From Clostridia bacterium (GTDB taxonomy: Bacteria; Bacillota; Clostridia; Peptostreptococcales; Acidaminobacteraceae), in assembly GCA_016937975.1 (NCBI GenBank), contig JAFGVN010000021.1, positions 1 through 64,000 of the forward strand: 64,000 nt of DNA, in the 5' to 3' direction. Shown here piece after piece: positions 35,166-44,834 of this stretch. Below the pieces are notes generated by a model. The model saw only the letters and a list, made by a program, of their open reading frames with translations, ran no database searches and was not told the origin of the DNA. The position numbers were made by a program, and so were the translations under genes. Within the stretch, counting starts at the first letter, position 1, and the number at the start of each line of letters is the position of its first letter.

Positions 35166-36401
35166 ATGGCATATAAACAAATCGTAAAAATCTGTCCAAT
35201 TTCAGGATTGGAGATTATCGAAAATGATAGATGGCAAAATCTAAGATTAGCAGAAAATTACTTGATCAGTTTTAGAAAAATAGGTGATCATATTGTCGAC
35301 GTCCATGGTTATGGTAACATGGGCGAATTTGATGCGATTAAATTCCAGAATTATTTAGATCGATTTGTTATCGAGATGGAAATTCAAACGCCTTTTGTTG
35401 AAATGAGAAATTATGAAGATCTAACAGGCATTCTCCCTACGAAAGAGACTTTACAGATTCAGAAGGATTACGCCATTGATAATAAGGATAGAAGAATTGG
35501 TTTTGTAACCTATAATGCAACTAGAGCCATAGATTTACTTTTGAAATCAGCTCAAAGACAATATAAGAAAGTAAATGTAAAGGTGTTTGCAGCAAAGGAC
35601 TATGAAGAAGCTGTGACCCAATCTATAAGTATCCTTTCAAGTCCTGAAAAAATTGGATATGTGTATGATGATAAAAAAAATTATAAAATATTAGCGAGTG
35701 ACCTTGAATGGGTAACCCTTTATAGTGGGCAGTTTTTATGGGAAGAAGATAGTCTTTTTGACATTGAAGATATTCGAATTGATTCAAAGCATCCACTGCA
35801 TGGAATTGTTGAAAATTTGACGATAATCAAAGAGGAATTAAGCAATCTTCGAGCCGATATAAGGCAAAAAGAAAAAAGCTTGGTTGAAGAACGCCACCAA
35901 ACTGAAAAAATAATAGAATCACTTCAAAGTGGCATTATTATTACTGAAGTAGGGACACAAATTATTGTTGATGTCAATCAAACTGCCTGTGAAATGATTG
36001 ATCGGTCTAAGGAAGAATTAATTGGTCTAAATTTAAAAGATATAATTGAAGTAGAAGAAAATTACAATTTAATTTCTTCTCATGGTGGTTTATTGGAATG
36101 TCGACTCATTAGAAAAGATGGCGTTAAAATTCCTGTAAAACGTAGTGTGATTAAAATTAGGCTTAGAGGGATACCCTATTTATTGGAAAATATTCTTGAT
36201 TTAAGTGATGAAAAAACCCATGAAGAAAAGCTACAAAAGACGCTTGCTCATACTAAACAACTTAACAACCTAACATTTAATAGAGAAAAAAGAATTATTG
36301 ATATGAAAATGGAGGTCAATTCATTATTAAAAGAATTGAAAAGACCTCCTAAATATAAGAGTGTCTTAAACCAACAGAGGGATAGCGATGAAGAACAATA
36401 A
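35166..36401 (+). CDS. STAS-like/PAS sensory protein without a kinase domain
   Basis: The 411-aa soluble protein has an alpha/beta N-terminal domain (about 30-165) resembling the STAS-like modules found in some sensor kinases, a linker, a coiled coil (about 215-255) and a PAS domain (about 255-370), ending in another coiled coil and a charged tail. It has no kinase, GGDEF or receiver domain. Its end overlaps the next gene, a hybrid histidine kinase, by 14 nt, so the two are surely co-expressed and it may be that kinase's sensory partner. The STAS-like call is tentative. Confidence 0.7.
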
Positions 36402-39400
36402 TGTAGAAAAGATTTTTGTAGAATATCATGAACCTAGAGACCAGCAAAAACATGTAAGAAGTTTTGCAGCAACACTCGGTAGATTTTTACCATTTATTAT
36501 GGTGTCTTATTTAGTGATTCTTCTTTTTCATACAGAGACAAAATTCACATTGGTACTGCTTTTTTTGATTCTGATTGTCTTGAATATTTATATGGGTATC
36601 AGCACGAGAAAAATTGATATGGATCGCCTCTTTGCGTTAGAACTCTCTAGGATTATATTTAACTCGGTTATGTGTTTTCTAATAGCTGTAGTGGTCGAAA
36701 GTGATATGCCTATTGCTATAGTCGTAGCCATTATATTATTTTCTTCCCAAATGTTTGCCATAGAATCAACTATTTTAAATCGATTGTCCTTATTACCTAT
36801 TATTGCTTCAATAGTAGGTGATGTTTATATGAATCATTATCAATATTACTATGATAATCCAATATTTTCATTCCTTCTTGTCATGATGATTTCCTTTACA
36901 TATTTTGCCGGCACAATCACAAGATACAATGTTAAGAAAAAAGATGACTTCAGTTTGAAGTTACAGGAATCAGAATCCAAGTTCAGAAGTTTATTTGATG
37001 CCAATGCAGATGGTATTTTAATTCTGAAGCGCTCTATTGTTGTAGAATGTAATAATAGTGCGGTAAAGATGTTTGGGTTTTTAACCAAGAATGAACTTAA
37101 CGGCGTGGAACTGATTAAATTATGCCCACCTAATCAATCCTCTGGTGAATCTTCAGAAAAAATGATGAGTCACTATATAAGAGTGGCTCTTCAGGAGGGC
37201 AAAACAAAGTTCGAATGGGAATTTATTGGACAGAATAATTTGATCGTTTGTGATGTCAATTTAAATATTTTTTTTGTTGGGCATTCTCGATATATTCAAT
37301 GTGTTTTAAGAGATATTAGTGAGAGAAAAATTGTTCAAGAAGAATTAATGCATCAGAAGCAACTTGATATGCTACAAGCACAAGAGCTTAAAGCCAATCA
37401 GGAAATTTTATTAAGTATAATGGAAGATGTAGAAGCTTCAAGAAGAGAAGCCGATAAGTTGAATCGCTCTTTGGAAAAAGAAATGAAAAGGGCAAAAGAT
37501 TTAATGGAAAAAGCAAAACAAGCAAGTGTAGCAAAATCTGAGTTCCTCGCCAATATGTCACATGAAATTAGAACACCGATGAATGGTATTATTGGCATGA
37601 ATAGCTTGCTTTTGGAAACTGCTTTAGATGAAGAACAAAGACAATATGCTGATGTAGTAGCCACCAGTGCAAAATCATTACTGGCTTTAGTTAATGATAT
37701 TTTAGATTTCTCGAAAATCGAAGCAGGTAAATTGGAATTAGAATCCATTGAATTTGATTTGGATAATTTGCTTCAGGAAGTTGTGATTGCTTTTGGTTTT
37801 CAAGCACAAAGTAAAAAGATTAATTTGATTCACAAAAGTTCGGTGGAAACTGATCAAATATACAAAGGCGATCCAGGCAGGTTGACTCAAATTATCAACA
37901 ACCTTATTGGTAATGCCATTAAATTTACCCATGAAGGTGAAGTGATTCTATCAGTATCTTTGCTGCATAAAAGTCATTATGATAGTATTTTACACTTTGA
38001 AGTCATTGATACAGGTATTGGCATACATGAAGATAAGCTCATAGGTATCTTTGACAGCTTTTCACAAGTGGAAACTTCCACAACAAGAAACTACGGTGGT
38101 ACAGGCTTAGGATTGGCAATTTCAAGACAATTAGTGGAGCTGATGGGTGGGAAAATTGGAGTGGATTCCATAGAAAATATTGGTTCGACCTTCTGGTTTG
38201 ATGTCAAACTGACAAATGTCGATCATCAACCTGTATTGGATTATGATTTGCTAGAAGATATTAATATCGTCATTTTGGAAAAAAATCATACTTATCGTCA
38301 ATTGTTTCATCAACTCTTAAGTGCATGGAAGATTAACCATATTGTTTTAGACAACGGCCCCGATCTTATTTTGAAACTCTTTGAAAAAGCTATGAATAAT
38401 TACATTTTTATTGTCGATTGTCAGATTGATGATTTACAAGGCGCATCTATTGTACAGAGCATCAGAAATAATCCAAATTGCAAAGGCGCAAAAATAGTTT
38501 CCTTAGCACCAATGCATCAGGTTCAGCAAATGAAGCAATCCTATTTTCATATGTATGACTATTTTCTTAGTAAGCCTTTTTCTAAGCACGATGTTTACAA
38601 GTTATTGTTATCTATAATTGAAAATAGAGAACCCTCATTGGTTCAAGAAGAAGAAAATCAATGGGAAAAATTACATATTCTCATTGTAGAAGATAATGTG
38701 GTTAATCAAAATATTGCTGTCAAAATGCTGGAAAAGAAAAATATAAAGGTTGATGTTGTCGCCAATGGACAAGAAGCTTTGGATATTTTAAAATTTAAAT
38801 CCTATGATTTGGTATTAATGGATTGTCAGATGCCTGTATTAAATGGATTTGATGCTACGAAGATCATACGTGAGACAGAAAGAAAACTTCATTTAGAAGC
38901 AATTCCAATTATTGCGATGACAGCAAGTTCAAAACAAGAAGATATTAATTTTTCAAAGGAAGTGGGCATGAATGACTATATCATTAAACCTCTGACTTTT
39001 GATAATTTTAAGAAGATGGTTGATCTGTGGTATAATATAAAACGGAATTCTTCTCGCGCAGCGTTAGAAGCAAAATACAGTCAATATGAGATTTTTGATT
39101 ACTCTAGATTGTTGAATCTTCTCATTGGAGATGTGGAAGGTGCAGAGGAAATTATTAAAATGGTACTGAATAGTATGCCAGATTATCTTAAGCAGCTAGA
39201 AAGTGGATTTGAAGAGAATAATCATTCCCTTATTGAAAGATTAAGTCATAAAATGAAAGGGATGTTTGCAAATATTGGAGCAATATCTCTGCAACATATC
39301 TGTCAAGATTTAGAAGATAAAATACACGAACAAGGTATTGATCAAACGTGCATCTATTTATTTAAGATGATGAAAAACCATTATTATTTGCTTTTAAAAT

Positions 39401-39471
39401 TGTTAAAGGATAATGAATATAATATGTATTTTGAGGAATGCTCTGTACAGATAAAAGATTTTCAGGTATGA
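36388..39471 (+). CDS. Membrane hybrid histidine kinase (PAS-HisKA-HATPase-REC-REC-Hpt)
   Basis: The 1027-aa sensor kinase has 5-6 membrane helices (about 25-180), a PAS domain (about 190-320), a coiled coil, HisKA ([14 protein letters not shown]; His near 392), HATPase ([15 protein letters not shown]), a first receiver-like domain (about 630-745, IVDCQIDD), a canonical second receiver (LIVEDN, LMDCQMP with Asp near 811, MTAS) and a C-terminal Hpt domain ([14 protein letters not shown]; His near 952). The phosphorelay is self-contained up to Hpt; no partner response regulator is adjacent. The stop is TGA. An orphan cobalamin riboswitch follows 26 nt later. Confidence 0.93.
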
Positions 39472-39496
39472 TGTTTTTAGAACTGCATATGTATTT

Positions 39497-39650
39497 TAGG
39501 TGCCAATACAAATTGGGTAATAGGGAAAGAGGTTAAAATCCTCTACAGCCCCCGCTACTGTAAATGGAATGAAATCTCATAATCCACTGTCGAAAGATGG
39601 GAAGGGAGAAAGTAAGTAGCCATAAGTCAGGAAACCTGCCTAGAATATGC
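39497..39650 (+). promoter_or_regulatory. Cobalamin riboswitch (orphan)
   Basis: The core AGGGAAAGAGGTTAAAATCC, the B12 box CAGCCCCCGCTACTGTAAATG and the distal GTAGCCATAAGTCAGGAAACCTGCCT match the adenosylcobalamin riboswitch consensus closely. An additional hairpin AACTTC/GAAGTT with a GGAGG loop (39659-39675) follows. Downstream on the + strand there is a terminator and then only minus-strand genes, so no target gene is visible. The riboswitch may act on the upstream kinase 3' end, on an antisense RNA to tlpA-ccdA, or as a small RNA. Confidence 0.92.
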
Positions 39651-39721
39651 TCTAATCGAACTTCGGAGGGAAGTTGTGAATTGTTCAGTATATGTATGAC
39701 ATATATGATTTAATGAATGAT

Positions 39722-39749
39722 ACACACCCAAAGACGGGTGTGTTTTTTT
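39722..39749 (+). terminator. Expression-platform terminator of the orphan riboswitch
   Basis: A perfect 8-bp stem ACACACCC / GGGTGTGT with loop AAAGAC and seven T. It lies about 70 nt after the aptamer and would end the RNA after about 250 nt. Confidence 0.9.
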
Positions 39750-39874
39750 GTCCTTCGAGTTCTCGGTCATCTGTGGTACTGCAAACCCTGAGCAGTAACC
39801 TTTACACTGTATTATCCTTCACTTCTATGCGCCAATAGAATTAATCCAGTGGGATGTTCCCTTTCTCAATATGT

Positions 39875-39902
39875 AAAAACCCGAAGGTCTCTTCGGGTTT
39901 TT
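39875..39902. terminator. Bidirectional terminator facing tlpA
   Basis: AAAAACCCGAAG / CTTCGGGTTTTT, 12 bp with loop GTCT, overlaps the stop codon of the minus-strand thioredoxin-like gene. It can also stop any + strand read-through from the riboswitch. Between 39750 and 39874 I see no gene or structure. Confidence 0.85.
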
Positions 39903-40494
39903 ACAATTTATCGTCTCTAATGTCTTGAATAATCGATTCCATTTGCTCTTTTGTCATCATACCATTAATACCTCCGAGAAGGATGCCTTCTTCATTGATA
40001 AAAAAAGTACTCGGTAAAGAGGAAATGTAAAACAAGTTGGAAAAGTAACCTTCTTCATCTAATAAAATATCAAAGTCATAAGGATTTTCGTTAATATATT
40101 TTTCCACTGTACTTTTACTTTCCTGTGCATTCAATGCCAAAACGACTACATCATCATAAGCATTCATTTCCTCAAGTGCAGGCATTTCCTTAACACAATA
40201 TGGACACCAAGTAGCCCAGAAATTTAACATGATGATTTTACCTTCATAATCAGAAATATTTATAGTTTCTCCTGTTAATGTGGTAAACTCAAAAGCCGGG
40301 ATTGTTTTACCAACTGCGATTTCCTCATTAGTTTCTGCCACGGGTGTTTCTTCACCAGTTGTTTCTTCAACGACTTGATTTTCAATTGTATTTGAAACAT
40401 TATTTTGATTTGAGTTTACATTTTCGTCCTTAGATGAGCTACAACCATAAAGAAAAACGAAAGATAAGAGTGTAATGATAACTAACTTTTTCAC
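39901..40494 (-). CDS. TlpA/ResA-like thiol-disulfide oxidoreductase lipoprotein
   Basis: The 197-aa protein has a lipoprotein signal (lipobox LYGC, Cys18), a Glu/Thr-rich linker and a thioredoxin fold (about 65-197) with the active site FWATWCPYCVKEMP. It should reduce disulfides outside the membrane, with electrons supplied by the adjacent CcdA-like protein. The start is GTG, after AGGAGG. It is 9 nt downstream of ccdA and co-transcribed with it. Confidence 0.92.
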   Translation of the reverse strand: MKKLVIITLLSFVFLYGCSSSKDENVNSNQNNVSNTIENQVVEETTGEETPVAETNEEIAVGKTIPAFEFTTLTGETINISDYEGKIIMLNFWATWCPYCVKEMPALEEMNAYDDVVVLALNAQESKSTVEKYINENPYDFDILLDEEGYFSNLFYISSLPSTFFINEEGILLGGINGMMTKEQMESIIQDIRDDKL

Positions 40495-40503
40495 AAAAGC
40501 CTC

Positions 40504-41199
40504 CTAAAAAAATAGTGCATTTAATGCGATTAATTTGTTTGTAAGAATTAATATACCAAAGATCATCAGAATGATTCCACTGATTTTCGGAATGTATTTT
40601 AATGCGGAATTAATCTTTTCAAGCATACGGTTAAAAAAGTTGATAAAGATTGCTGTTAACATAAATGGTATTGCCATGCCTAGAGCATAAATTAATAGAA
40701 GAATAATGCCTTGTGTCGCGGTAGAAGATGCGCCTGCATAAAATACTATAGAACCAAGAACTGGTCCAAAGCAAGGTGTCCATCCAGCACCAAAAGCCAT
40801 ACCCATAATGACAGCACCAAAGAAACTGTTAACTTGATCTGGTGTTTTAATAAAAGTCGGTATTTTAACTTTAATAAATTTAAACAAACCTAACATGTTT
40901 AAACCAAAGAGAATCATTACCCATCCACTCAGTTTCAAGAAAAATTCCTTGTTATGAACAAAGATACGTCCCAAAGCTGTTGCTGATAATCCCATTAATA
41001 CAAAAATAAATGAAAACCCTAAGATGAAACCAAAGGTTCTACTGATGACACGCCATTTGTTTTCTTTCAACTCACTTTCTGCAGTAGAGCCTGTAATGTA
41101 CATAATATAAACAGGTATCAAAGGTAAGATGCAAGGTGAGAAAAAAGATAGAAAACCAGTTGTAAAAGCAAGTGTAAATGATATATGTTCTGCGCCCAT
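40504..41199 (-). CDS. ccdA: CcdA/DsbD-family membrane electron carrier
   Basis: A 231-aa protein with six membrane helices that moves reducing equivalents from cytoplasmic thioredoxin to extracytoplasmic TlpA/ResA-type proteins. The redox cysteines are in FFSPCILPLIPVY (about 22) and GAGWTPCFGPVLG (about 137). AGGAGGTACC precedes the ATG. It forms an operon with the downstream tlpA-like gene. No cytochrome c genes are nearby, so a general thiol repair role is more likely than cytochrome maturation. Confidence 0.93.
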   Translation of the reverse strand: MGAEHISFTLAFTTGFLSFFSPCILPLIPVYIMYITGSTAESELKENKWRVISRTFGFILGFSFIFVLMGLSATALGRIFVHNKEFFLKLSGWVMILFGLNMLGLFKFIKVKIPTFIKTPDQVNSFFGAVIMGMAFGAGWTPCFGPVLGSIVFYAGASSTATQGIILLLIYALGMAIPFMLTAIFINFFNRMLEKINSALKYIPKISGIILMIFGILILTNKLIALNALFF

Positions 41200-42592: not shown

Positions 42593-43228
42593 ATGCCTAG
42601 AGAAGCAAGAGAAAAAAAGTTGTACAGTTATTATTATATTGAACAGAAATGTGAAAAATCCTTAGTGATTTTCAGAACAAAAAAACATAGAATGATGTTT
42701 TTAGAAACGCTGAAAAAAGTCAAAGAAAAATATAATTTCAAATTGTATGGTGTAAGTGTTCATCGCTCAGGCTTTGAAATGATTTTATATGATAATGGCA
42801 GTGATATTTCTAAAATCATGAAGAGTCTAAATATTAGTATTGCCATGCAATACAAATGTGATGATCCTGAATGTGGCGTTGTTTTTAAAGAACGTTATAA
42901 AAGTGAGATGATCACTCCTGCAACAGTATCAGACAGAATAAAAAAATTACCTTTATGCGTCTATATGTCAAAAGATTTGTTGGATACATTTTTAGTAGAA
43001 GAGATTCCAGTAAAGCAATGCATTGATTGTGTAGATAAAGCAGAAGAGAAGCTAAAGGAAATTTTAGAAGCGGAAGGAATGACTTTTGAGGAGATGTTAA
43101 AAAACAAATCCTTCAGAAATGAATTAATTAAGGATTTTAGAAAAACTTCAGTACTGAGTTTAGCTCAGCTTGGAGAGTTATTTGGTCAAATTAGTGAATC
43201 AGGTGTTTCTAAAATATTAAGTAGGTAG
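42593..43228 (+). CDS. RAYT (REP-associated tyrosine transposase)-like protein lacking the HUH motif
   Basis: The 211-aa protein follows the RAYT/Y1-transposase plan: N terminus MPREAREK, a fold matching the region before the catalytic site (FLETLKKVKEKYNFKLYGVS), the downstream VFKERYKSEM that matches the usual LFQDRYKSE, and an HTH-like C terminus (SLAQLGELF...GVSKILSR). Where active enzymes have N-H-x-H-L-L, this one has S-G-F-E-M-I, so the metal-binding HUH pair is lost. It is probably a DNA- or RNA-binding domesticated derivative. It ends 8 nt before trxB and shares its operon. Confidence 0.75.
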   Translation: MPREAREKKLYSYYYIEQKCEKSLVIFRTKKHRMMFLETLKKVKEKYNFKLYGVSVHRSGFEMILYDNGSDISKIMKSLNISIAMQYKCDDPECGVVFKERYKSEMITPATVSDRIKKLPLCVYMSKDLLDTFLVEEIPVKQCIDCVDKAEEKLKEILEAEGMTFEEMLKNKSFRNELIKDFRKTSVLSLAQLGELFGQISESGVSKILSR

Positions 43229-43236
43229 GTGAAAGT

Positions 43237-44178
43237 ATGTTTAATTTCAGTTTATCAAGCAATAAAAATCAACTCAGCAATGAAATCCTTTATGATTTGA
43301 TCATTGTTGGTAGTGGACCTGCAGGTTTATCTTCGGCCATCTATGCAGCGAGAAAAGGTTTGTCCGTGGGAATCATAGGTGATAAGCCAGGTGGTCAAGT
43401 GAATGACACTTCAAGTGTTGAGAATTATATTGGTTTTGAATTTGTAACTGGTGAAGGTCTAGCAGAAGCTTTTAAGAAACATGCAGAATCTTTGGAAATA
43501 CACATGGCTAATGATGTATTGGTCAAAAGTATAGAGAAAGATGATGTTTTCAAGCTTATTGCCAACAATTATATGACTTATCAAAGTAAAACAGTTTTAA
43601 TTGCCACAGGATCCAAATCAAGACAATTAGGTGTTCCTGGTGAAAAAGAGTTTTATGGTAAAGGTGTAACTTATTGCGCAATATGTGATGGACCGTTATT
43701 CAAAGAAAAAACAGTTGTAATTGCAGGTGGTGGTAACTCAGCAGTGGAAGCTGCTATAGACTTATCGAAGATTGCAAATAAGGTATATGTAGTACATCGT
43801 TCAGAGTTTAGAGCGGATAAAATATTAGTGGATAAATTGTATCAATTGCCTAATGTAGAAATTCTTCTTAAAACTCAAATTAAGGAAATCCTAGGCGATG
43901 GACTGGTAAATTCCATTCAAACAACTGGTGAATTGGATGGCAATCTATTAACAGACGGTGTTTTGGTGGAAATAGGCTATGTACCCAATTCTCAATTTGC
44001 AGATGTAGAGAAAAATCAAAGAGGGGAAATCATTATTGATGATCATCATATGACGAGTATCTCGGGCATTTTTGCTGCAGGTGATGTAACAACTGAACCC
44101 TATAAACAAATTGTGGTAGCCGCAAGTGAAGGTGCAAAAGCAGCGCTTGCCATCAACGAATATATTAACAATTTATAA
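43237..44178 (+). CDS. trxB: Thioredoxin reductase-like flavoprotein
   Basis: A 313-aa FAD/NAD(P)H flavoprotein that reduces thioredoxin-type partners. It has GSGPAGLSSAIYAARKG near 28, the redox pair CAIC at about 147-150, the nucleotide-binding GGGNSAVEAAIDL and the C-terminal FAAGDVTTEPYKQIV. The next gene is a two-domain disulfide oxidoreductase with which it should pair, a split equivalent of AhpF. A conserved long N-terminal extension (about 18 residues) precedes the FAD domain. Confidence 0.93.
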   Translation: MFNFSLSSNKNQLSNEILYDLIIVGSGPAGLSSAIYAARKGLSVGIIGDKPGGQVNDTSSVENYIGFEFVTGEGLAEAFKKHAESLEIHMANDVLVKSIEKDDVFKLIANNYMTYQSKTVLIATGSKSRQLGVPGEKEFYGKGVTYCAICDGPLFKEKTVVIAGGGNSAVEAAIDLSKIANKVYVVHRSEFRADKILVDKLYQLPNVEILLKTQIKEILGDGLVNSIQTTGELDGNLLTDGVLVEIGYVPNSQFADVEKNQRGEIIIDDHHMTSISGIFAAGDVTTEPYKQIVVAASEGAKAALAINEYINNL

Positions 44179-44189
44179 GGAGGCTTATT

Positions 44190-44834
44190 ATGGCTTTATT
44201 TAACGCAGACATTACAAAACAATTAACAGAAATTTTCCAAGGATTAAAAAATCCAGTAAAAATCGTATTATTTACAGATGAAAACAATTGTGAATCTTGT
44301 AATGATACAACAGAATTCATGAAAGAAATTGAAGCAATGTCAGACAAAATTGGTTTTACTGGTTTTGATTTAAAGAAAGATGCTGAAGAAGCAAGCAAGT
44401 ATGGAATTGACAAAGCACCAGCAATCAGATTGCTAGATGAAAATGAAAAAGATTATGGTGTAACTTTTTATGGTATTCCAGCTGGTCATGAGATCAATTC
44501 TTTCATAGCAGGTTTAATGGAATTATCAGGTGCTGGAGAAGTGTTGCCTGAAGCAATGAAGAATGATTTAGCAAAAGTAGATAAGAAAGTAAACATTAAG
44601 GTGTTTGTTACTTTAAGCTGTCCACATTGCTCTGGTGCTGTATCAAAAGCGCATAAGTTAGCTTATGAAAACCCAAATGTAGAAGCTGAAATGATTGAAT
44701 GTGGTACATTCCCAGAATTAGCTGACAAATACAATGTTTCAGGCGTACCTAAGATTGTGTTTAACGATACTGAAGAATTAATCGGTAATCAACCATTTGA
44801 TCAATTCTTAAGTGCAGTATTAAAAGCAAAATAA
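44190..44834 (+). CDS. Protein disulfide oxidoreductase (two thioredoxin folds)
   Basis: A 214-aa cytosolic PDO/glutaredoxin-like protein with two fused thioredoxin folds. The N-terminal unit has CESC (about 37-40) and the C-terminal unit CPHC (about 144-147) with a cis-Pro loop GVPKIV. It matches the N-terminal domain of AhpF and archaeal PDOs. It receives electrons from the adjacent TrxB and may feed peroxidases, ribonucleotide reductase or the CcdA pathway. AAGGAGG precedes the ATG 11 nt after trxB. Confidence 0.9.
   Translation: MALFNADITKQLTEIFQGLKNPVKIVLFTDENNCESCNDTTEFMKEIEAMSDKIGFTGFDLKKDAEEASKYGIDKAPAIRLLDENEKDYGVTFYGIPAGHEINSFIAGLMELSGAGEVLPEAMKNDLAKVDKKVNIKVFVTLSCPHCSGAVSKAHKLAYENPNVEAEMIECGTFPELADKYNVSGVPKIVFNDTEELIGNQPFDQFLSAVLKAK

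Follow-up and report, generated by a model that had tools for sequence, protein, structure and literature searches.

A riboswitch is nearly always taken to control the adjacent gene. To our knowledge, only a few B12 riboswitches control noncoding RNAs, namely, EutX/Rli55, which act by protein capture, and AspocR, which acts as an antisense RNA, in Listeria and Enterococcus. EutX of Enterococcus faecalis and Rli55 of Listeria monocytogenes consist of a cobalamin riboswitch, a terminator, an RNA element, and a second terminator, with no open reading frame (ORF); a short form is made with B12 and a long form without it, and the RNA binds EutV (PMC5821096, PMC8079631). AspocR of L. monocytogenes runs for 1.4 kb antisense through pocR. 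The small RNAs (sRNAs) LhrC, RsaE, and FsrA carry CU-rich motifs that are repeated in loops and single strands and bind Shine-Dalgarno sequences (PMC4132741; RsaE and FsrA as cited there).

The locus described here lies in a window of 64 kb, the whole stretch of clostridial DNA that was analyzed, and by computational signs it appears to be built like EutX/Rli55, with a new and apparently genus-conserved RNA body. It has in common with EutX/Rli55 a B12 riboswitch upstream of a putative noncoding RNA with two terminators; it differs in the body and is not near eut genes. As in AspocR, the riboswitch precedes a putative noncoding RNA that is convergent with a gene, but the RNA at this locus would end at the second terminator, T2, about 5 nt into tlpA. 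The likeness to LhrC, RsaE, and FsrA lies in several redundant CU-rich loop or single-strand motifs complementary to Shine-Dalgarno sequences; in contrast, those sRNAs are not under riboswitch control, and the motifs at this locus are CCUU/UCCUUC and only partly UCCC. Compared with class-I cobalamin riboswitches of RF00174, the aptamer and its predicted P13-T1 switch are ordinary, whereas the downstream gene is missing. That the locus specifies a B12-controlled noncoding RNA of some kind is, in our judgment, probable.

A cobalamin riboswitch without an adjacent target gene

A first-pass annotation of the window had described a textbook cobalamin aptamer at 39497-39650 and proposed a search with Infernal and the Rfam cobalamin model. 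That search returned a full-length match to RF00174 at 39481-39657 (109.2 bits, E 2e-27, against a gathering score of 31.5), which places the aptamer in this family (Table 1). The annotation had seen only convergent minus-strand genes after the aptamer and no gene for B12 synthesis, transport, or use in the window, and both statements held. No sense ORF with a ribosome-binding site lies 3' of the aptamer, the next genes being the convergent tlpA and ccdA. NCBIfam and Pfam scans of nearly all ORFs of at least 110 aa gave no B12 gene within the window, and a genome search with PF02310 had no match on the window's contig. Given the aptamer, both terminators, the convergent neighbors, and scans that gave no B12 gene in the window, the gene-less cobalamin riboswitch is real and not an artifact.

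Table 1. Coordinates of the features at and around the riboswitch locus (positions in the window)
Feature	Coordinates	Strand	Basis or remarks
Hybrid histidine kinase (PAS, HisKA, HATPase, receiver, Hpt), upstream neighbor	36388..39471	+	Pfam; stop overlaps putative -10
Putative sigma-70 promoter of riboswitch RNA, TGTACA-17-TATGAT	39444..39472	+	Scan, 9/12
Cobalamin riboswitch aptamer	39481..39657	+	RF00174, 109.2 bits, E 2e-27
Predicted P13 hairpin, AACUUC-GGAGG-GAAGUU	39659..39675	+	Fold
Predicted antiterminator 5' arm, GUG-A-AUUGUUCA	39676..39687	+	Minimum free energy fold of RNA ending in T1 loop; GAAUUGUUCA invariant in three species
Predicted antiterminator 3' arm, UGAAUGAU-A-CAC, overlaps T1 5' arm	39714..39725	+	Fold
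Terminator T1	39722..39749	+	Scan; stem 39722-39743 (8 bp), seven T 39743-39749
RNA body, T1 to T2	39750..39871	+	CCUU at 39752, 39799, 39816, 39860; CCCU at 39786
P2 hairpin, CCCU-containing loop	39775..39801	+	Folds, unpaired probabilities
P3 bulged hairpin, conserved asymmetric loop UCCUUCA, core of conserved element	39805..39851	+	Three-sequence alignment; R1 62.7 bits
Terminator T2	39872..39905	+	Scan; 15-bp stem; could also serve tlpA from opposite side
tlpA/resA-like thiol-disulfide oxidoreductase, convergent	39901..40494	-	Pfam and NCBIfam
ccdA/DsbD-TM-like membrane protein	40504..41199	-	Pfam

The whole 4.03-Mb genome (98.7% complete) holds two cobalamin riboswitches, the one at this locus and another that precedes a gene with a lipoprotein-like signal at the start of its product, taken to be a B12-uptake binding protein.

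The aptamer region led to two congeneric relatives, a Clostridiales MAG (G001, contig JAEIOD010000050) and Acidaminobacter sp. JC074 (G002, contig NZ_VANV01000007). All three genomes share the order histidine kinase, promoter-like -10, aptamer, P13, T1, about 115 to 125 nt, T2, and convergent tlpA/ccdA, and no sense gene follows the riboswitch at the locus in either relative. Identity between the window and the relatives is 42 to 43% for the kinase, 46 to 47% for TlpA, and 64% for CcdA; for the DNA of the aptamer it is 89%, and for P13 with the antiterminator 5' arm it is 92 to 97%. These comparisons bear on the suggestion that the locus is a decayed remnant, its B12 gene having been lost or relocated. 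In line with that suggestion, of the other cobalamin riboswitches examined across the family and order, nearly all lie in front of an ORF. However, the synteny comparison revealed no relative with a B12 gene at the locus, and the aptamer, P13, T1, antiterminator, body, and T2 are kept in three species while the kinase and TlpA have diverged to 42 to 47%. A functionless remnant would not survive in this way, and the conserved arrangement contradicts this suggestion, which we consider very unlikely, the least probable of the explanations weighed here. A literature search found no paper joining Acidaminobacter and riboswitches.

Two further riboswitch arrangements were observed. In G001, two same-strand cobalamin riboswitches about 210 nt apart (C36, 21873-22052 and 22262-22463; L008 and L010) form a tandem pair before one ORF. 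A different family of the order has its own gene-less cobalamin riboswitch, unrelated to that of the locus (L030, G046:C1, about 2246408, minus strand), which consists of an aptamer, T1, about 80 nt, and a second terminator, followed by a convergent CAP/SCP-like gene; the DNA between its terminators does not resemble the P3 element.

Promoter, terminators, and the predicted B12 switch

Alone, the promoter match upstream of the aptamer is weak, since shuffled sequences give as many promoter-like sites as the region does. It becomes credible because TATGAT recurs in all three genomes, always 25 to 26 nt 5' of the aptamer core AGGTGC, and falls outside coding sequence in both relatives, even though its position relative to the kinase stop is not fixed (overlapping, 20, and 20 nt). 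The spacing also bears on whether the riboswitch is instead the 3' untranslated region of the kinase mRNA, setting its 3' end or stability, as the first-pass annotation had allowed. Its figure of 26 nt between the kinase stop and the aptamer core was correct (stop 39471, AGGTGC 39498); the distance is 26 to 52 nt across the three genomes, and no terminator lies between the kinase stop and the aptamer. Against this, it is the -10/aptamer spacing that is constant and the kinase-stop distance that varies, which favors an independent RNA and weakens control of the kinase mRNA 3' end. A kinase 3' untranslated region would also leave the body 3' of T1 unexplained, and we view this alternative as improbable.

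A scan of the region found three terminators, compared with 0.6 ± 0.9 in shuffles. They include both terminators that had been reported from the sequence, the 8-bp stem with seven T (39722-39749) and a second one at 39875-39902, recovered here as T2 with its stem at 39872-39905. T1 and T2 are present in both relatives, although the T1 stem of G002 is unrelated in sequence. T2 is central to another earlier proposal, antisense control. In the form weighed here, read-through past T2 into tlpA-ccdA at low B12 would repress both genes, much as in AspocR. The convergent orientation is conserved in the three species, and riboswitch families with an enrichment of antisense orientation include cobalamin (PMC9943018). 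However, T2 (39872-39905, compared with a tlpA stop at 39901) is kept in all three genomes and would end a read-through RNA only about 5 nt into tlpA; the overlap with the convergent gene that marks the antisense type would thus be lacking, and the proposal is weakened. Nor does it account for the conserved body between T1 and T2, and we know of no link between TlpA or CcdA and B12. The chance that this explanation is right appears to be small.

The surrounding genes form a thiol-redox neighborhood, which includes, besides tlpA/ccdA, a protein disulfide oxidoreductase matching NCBIfam PDO_seleno_TRX and a thioredoxin-reductase-like protein beside it, the pair occupying 43237-44175 and 44190-44831. 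The window TlpA (39901-40494, minus strand) has the motif Cys-Pro-Tyr-Cys. In the relatives (L017, 1934-2554, minus strand; L018, 681-1310, plus strand) an in-frame TGA stands in place of the first Cys codon (FWATW-TGA-PYC), which makes these orthologues look like selenoproteins and the window TlpA like the Cys version. A 211-aa protein at 42593-43225 has no Pfam or NCBIfam match, and its start resembles a REP-associated (Y1) transposase.

The predicted folds suggest how the riboswitch could control T1. When RNA ending in the T1 loop was folded, a helix formed from the P13 3' side or the invariant GAAUUGUUCA blocked the T1 5' arm in all three species; once the T1 3' arm was included, P13 and T1 won. 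The P13/T1 and antiterminator folds are thus predicted to be mutually exclusive in the three species. The antiterminator helix differs in detail among them, and the details of the switch are therefore inferred. In class-I B12 riboswitches, the ligand usually favors P13. P13 leads to T1, which implies that B12 would be an OFF signal at this locus. The CCUUC directly 3' of T1 can pair with the P13 loop GGAGG in the window (for the relatives this pairing was drawn by hand), and such pairing might lock the long form.

We propose that the locus is a self-contained noncoding-RNA gene in which B12 would set the length of the RNA. From the candidate promoter at the kinase stop, transcription would start at about 39480. 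With adenosylcobalamin bound, P13 would form, then T1, giving a short RNA of about 270 nt ending at T1. Without B12, 39676-39687 would pair with 39714-39725, blocking T1 and allowing polymerase to reach T2 with a long RNA of about 425 nt.

A conserved RNA body between T1 and T2

The DNA after T1 had been described as about 125 nt of featureless sequence, a description that did not survive the analysis. Positions 39750-39871 together with T2 fold far better than shuffled sequences (z -5.3), and they contain an element whose sequence and structure are conserved in the two other species. The window and G001 share a block, CTGTATTATCCTTCA[C/A]TTCTAT, that is identical at 21 of 22 positions, compared with a longest block of 14 in 400 shuffles. 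G001 and G002 share a block of 17 with one mismatch. The longest block between the window and G002 alone (13) falls among the shuffled values, and for that pair the case depends on structure and position. The 22-nt block is part of P3, which is built from a lower stem, the asymmetric internal loop UCCUUCA, and an upper stem, UUCUAU/AUAGAA. In the alignment of the three P3 sequences, 95% of cells pair and 4 of 14 pairs are compensatory, with none in any slid control; with only three sequences, this covariation rests on few events. The P2 stem is wholly different among the species (ACUGC/GCAGU, GCACG/CGUGU, and ACCUAU/AUAGGU), while its loop keeps CCCU and reads UCCCUUUU in both relatives. P1 is a weaker closing stem in the individual folds.

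Searched with a covariance model of P3 (R1), the three genomes gave 62 to 73 bits, and no other genome among 394 of the order exceeded 27.5 bits. With R3, a less circular model built from the two relatives only, the window element ranked first in 64 kb (21.4 bits, E 0.075); the longer R2 (99 nt, two sequences) did not find it. Rfam at a relaxed E-value gave no known family for the body. In the window's own genome and the family, R1 detected no second P3, and own-genome matches beyond the locus reached at most about 20 bits. Outside the genus, a pattern scan of 84,980 genomes and R1 over the family and the same 394 genomes produced nothing beyond chance-like matches, with R1 scores of up to 31 bits at pattern-selected loci and no riboswitch near the chance-like loci checked. 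One such match, L049, lies inside a transporter gene.

These features also bear on whether the riboswitch controls a small peptide gene. G001 has a 77-codon frame with a GUG start behind the GGAGG of P13, and G002 has a 22-codon frame. But these frames lack conservation: no start is present at P13 in G002, and in the window the frame at the element closes with TAG. Moreover, amino acids differ between the conserved blocks while the RNA pairs covary, and we regard a peptide as highly improbable.

Candidate modes of action of the long RNA

The motif CCUU occurs four times in each body in all three species, compared with 0.65 to 1.1 expected; this enrichment (p 0.01, 0.001, and 0.001) was noticed after looking at the sequences. 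None of the three bodies contains AAGG. The CCUU motifs are mostly predicted to be unpaired, namely, those 3' of T1 and those within the P2 loop and the internal loop of P3; the motif 3' of P1 is only partly unpaired, and at 39799 in the window the CC is paired. The bodies thus have the redundant exposed CU-rich motifs of the CU-rich sRNAs, with the strict form UCCC in some only. Because exposed, repeated CU-rich motifs are found as in LhrC, RsaE, and FsrA, our preferred model is an sRNA that would repress mRNAs at low B12. The conserved body would be present only in the long form, which alone would include the variable CCCU-loop hairpin, P3 and its UCCUUCA loop, and the CCUU motifs that flank them. 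When B12 is short, these motifs could pair in trans with the Shine-Dalgarno regions of mRNAs, for example those of B12-dependent pathways, and repress them. A target search with TGAAGGAT-ATG gave about 50 sites per genome, which was uninformative and singled out no target, and duplex energies at the starts of B12-binding-domain genes showed no pairing consistent across species.

Alternatively, the long RNA could be a decoy for a non-ANTAR RNA-binding protein, with the P3 UCCUUCA loop as the putative site, such that B12 would stop its synthesis and free the protein. The layout is the same as in EutX/Rli55, and a bulged hairpin with an invariant loop and covarying stems is typical also of protein sites. 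On the other hand, there is no second copy of P3 in the window's own genome or the family, and therefore no mRNA carries the same site. EutV-type capture was considered separately. In contrast to EutX/Rli55, the locus lacks the dual hairpins with six-base AxxGxx loops (A1 and G4) that ANTAR proteins bind: the P3 loops are GCGCCA, UUUU, and UUUA, and the P2 loops have 8 to 9 bases. A PF03861 search of the three genomes found no ANTAR protein in the window genome or G002, which counts against the decoy as well. G001 encodes a single ANTAR-domain protein (C8, 454465-454623; L115). We therefore rejected the ANTAR/EutV mechanism; of the EutX/Rli55 precedent invoked by the first-pass annotation, the architecture is retained and the mechanism is not. 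The decoy itself we hold to be unlikely.

The RNA probably acts in trans. Within that, base pairing is a reasonable but tentative proposal, and protein binding is a doubtful one. The B12-regulated small RNA that had been listed among the first options gains support from the synteny, promoter-like -10, switch, and T1-T2 body conserved in three species. We lean, with modest confidence, toward the overall explanation of a noncoding RNA that B12 represses, that has a promoter of its own, and whose body probably acts in trans via its CU-rich motifs. The most specific form of this explanation, in which the riboswitch directly gates a trans-acting base-pairing sRNA and several anti-Shine-Dalgarno motifs become exposed as the RNA grows longer in B12 shortage, is possible but still more tentative than base pairing as such.

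If this model is true, one metabolite aptamer would control many unlinked mRNAs, through a regulator confined to the genus and with no relation to EutX, AspocR, or any Rfam family. As a defined segment of 122 nt, the body offers a tangible starting point for finding targets. "Orphan" riboswitches would merit a search for conserved RNA after the terminator rather than dismissal as relics. The locus would then represent an independent case of B12 control over a noncoding RNA, in an amino-acid-fermenting clostridium and with a different RNA output.
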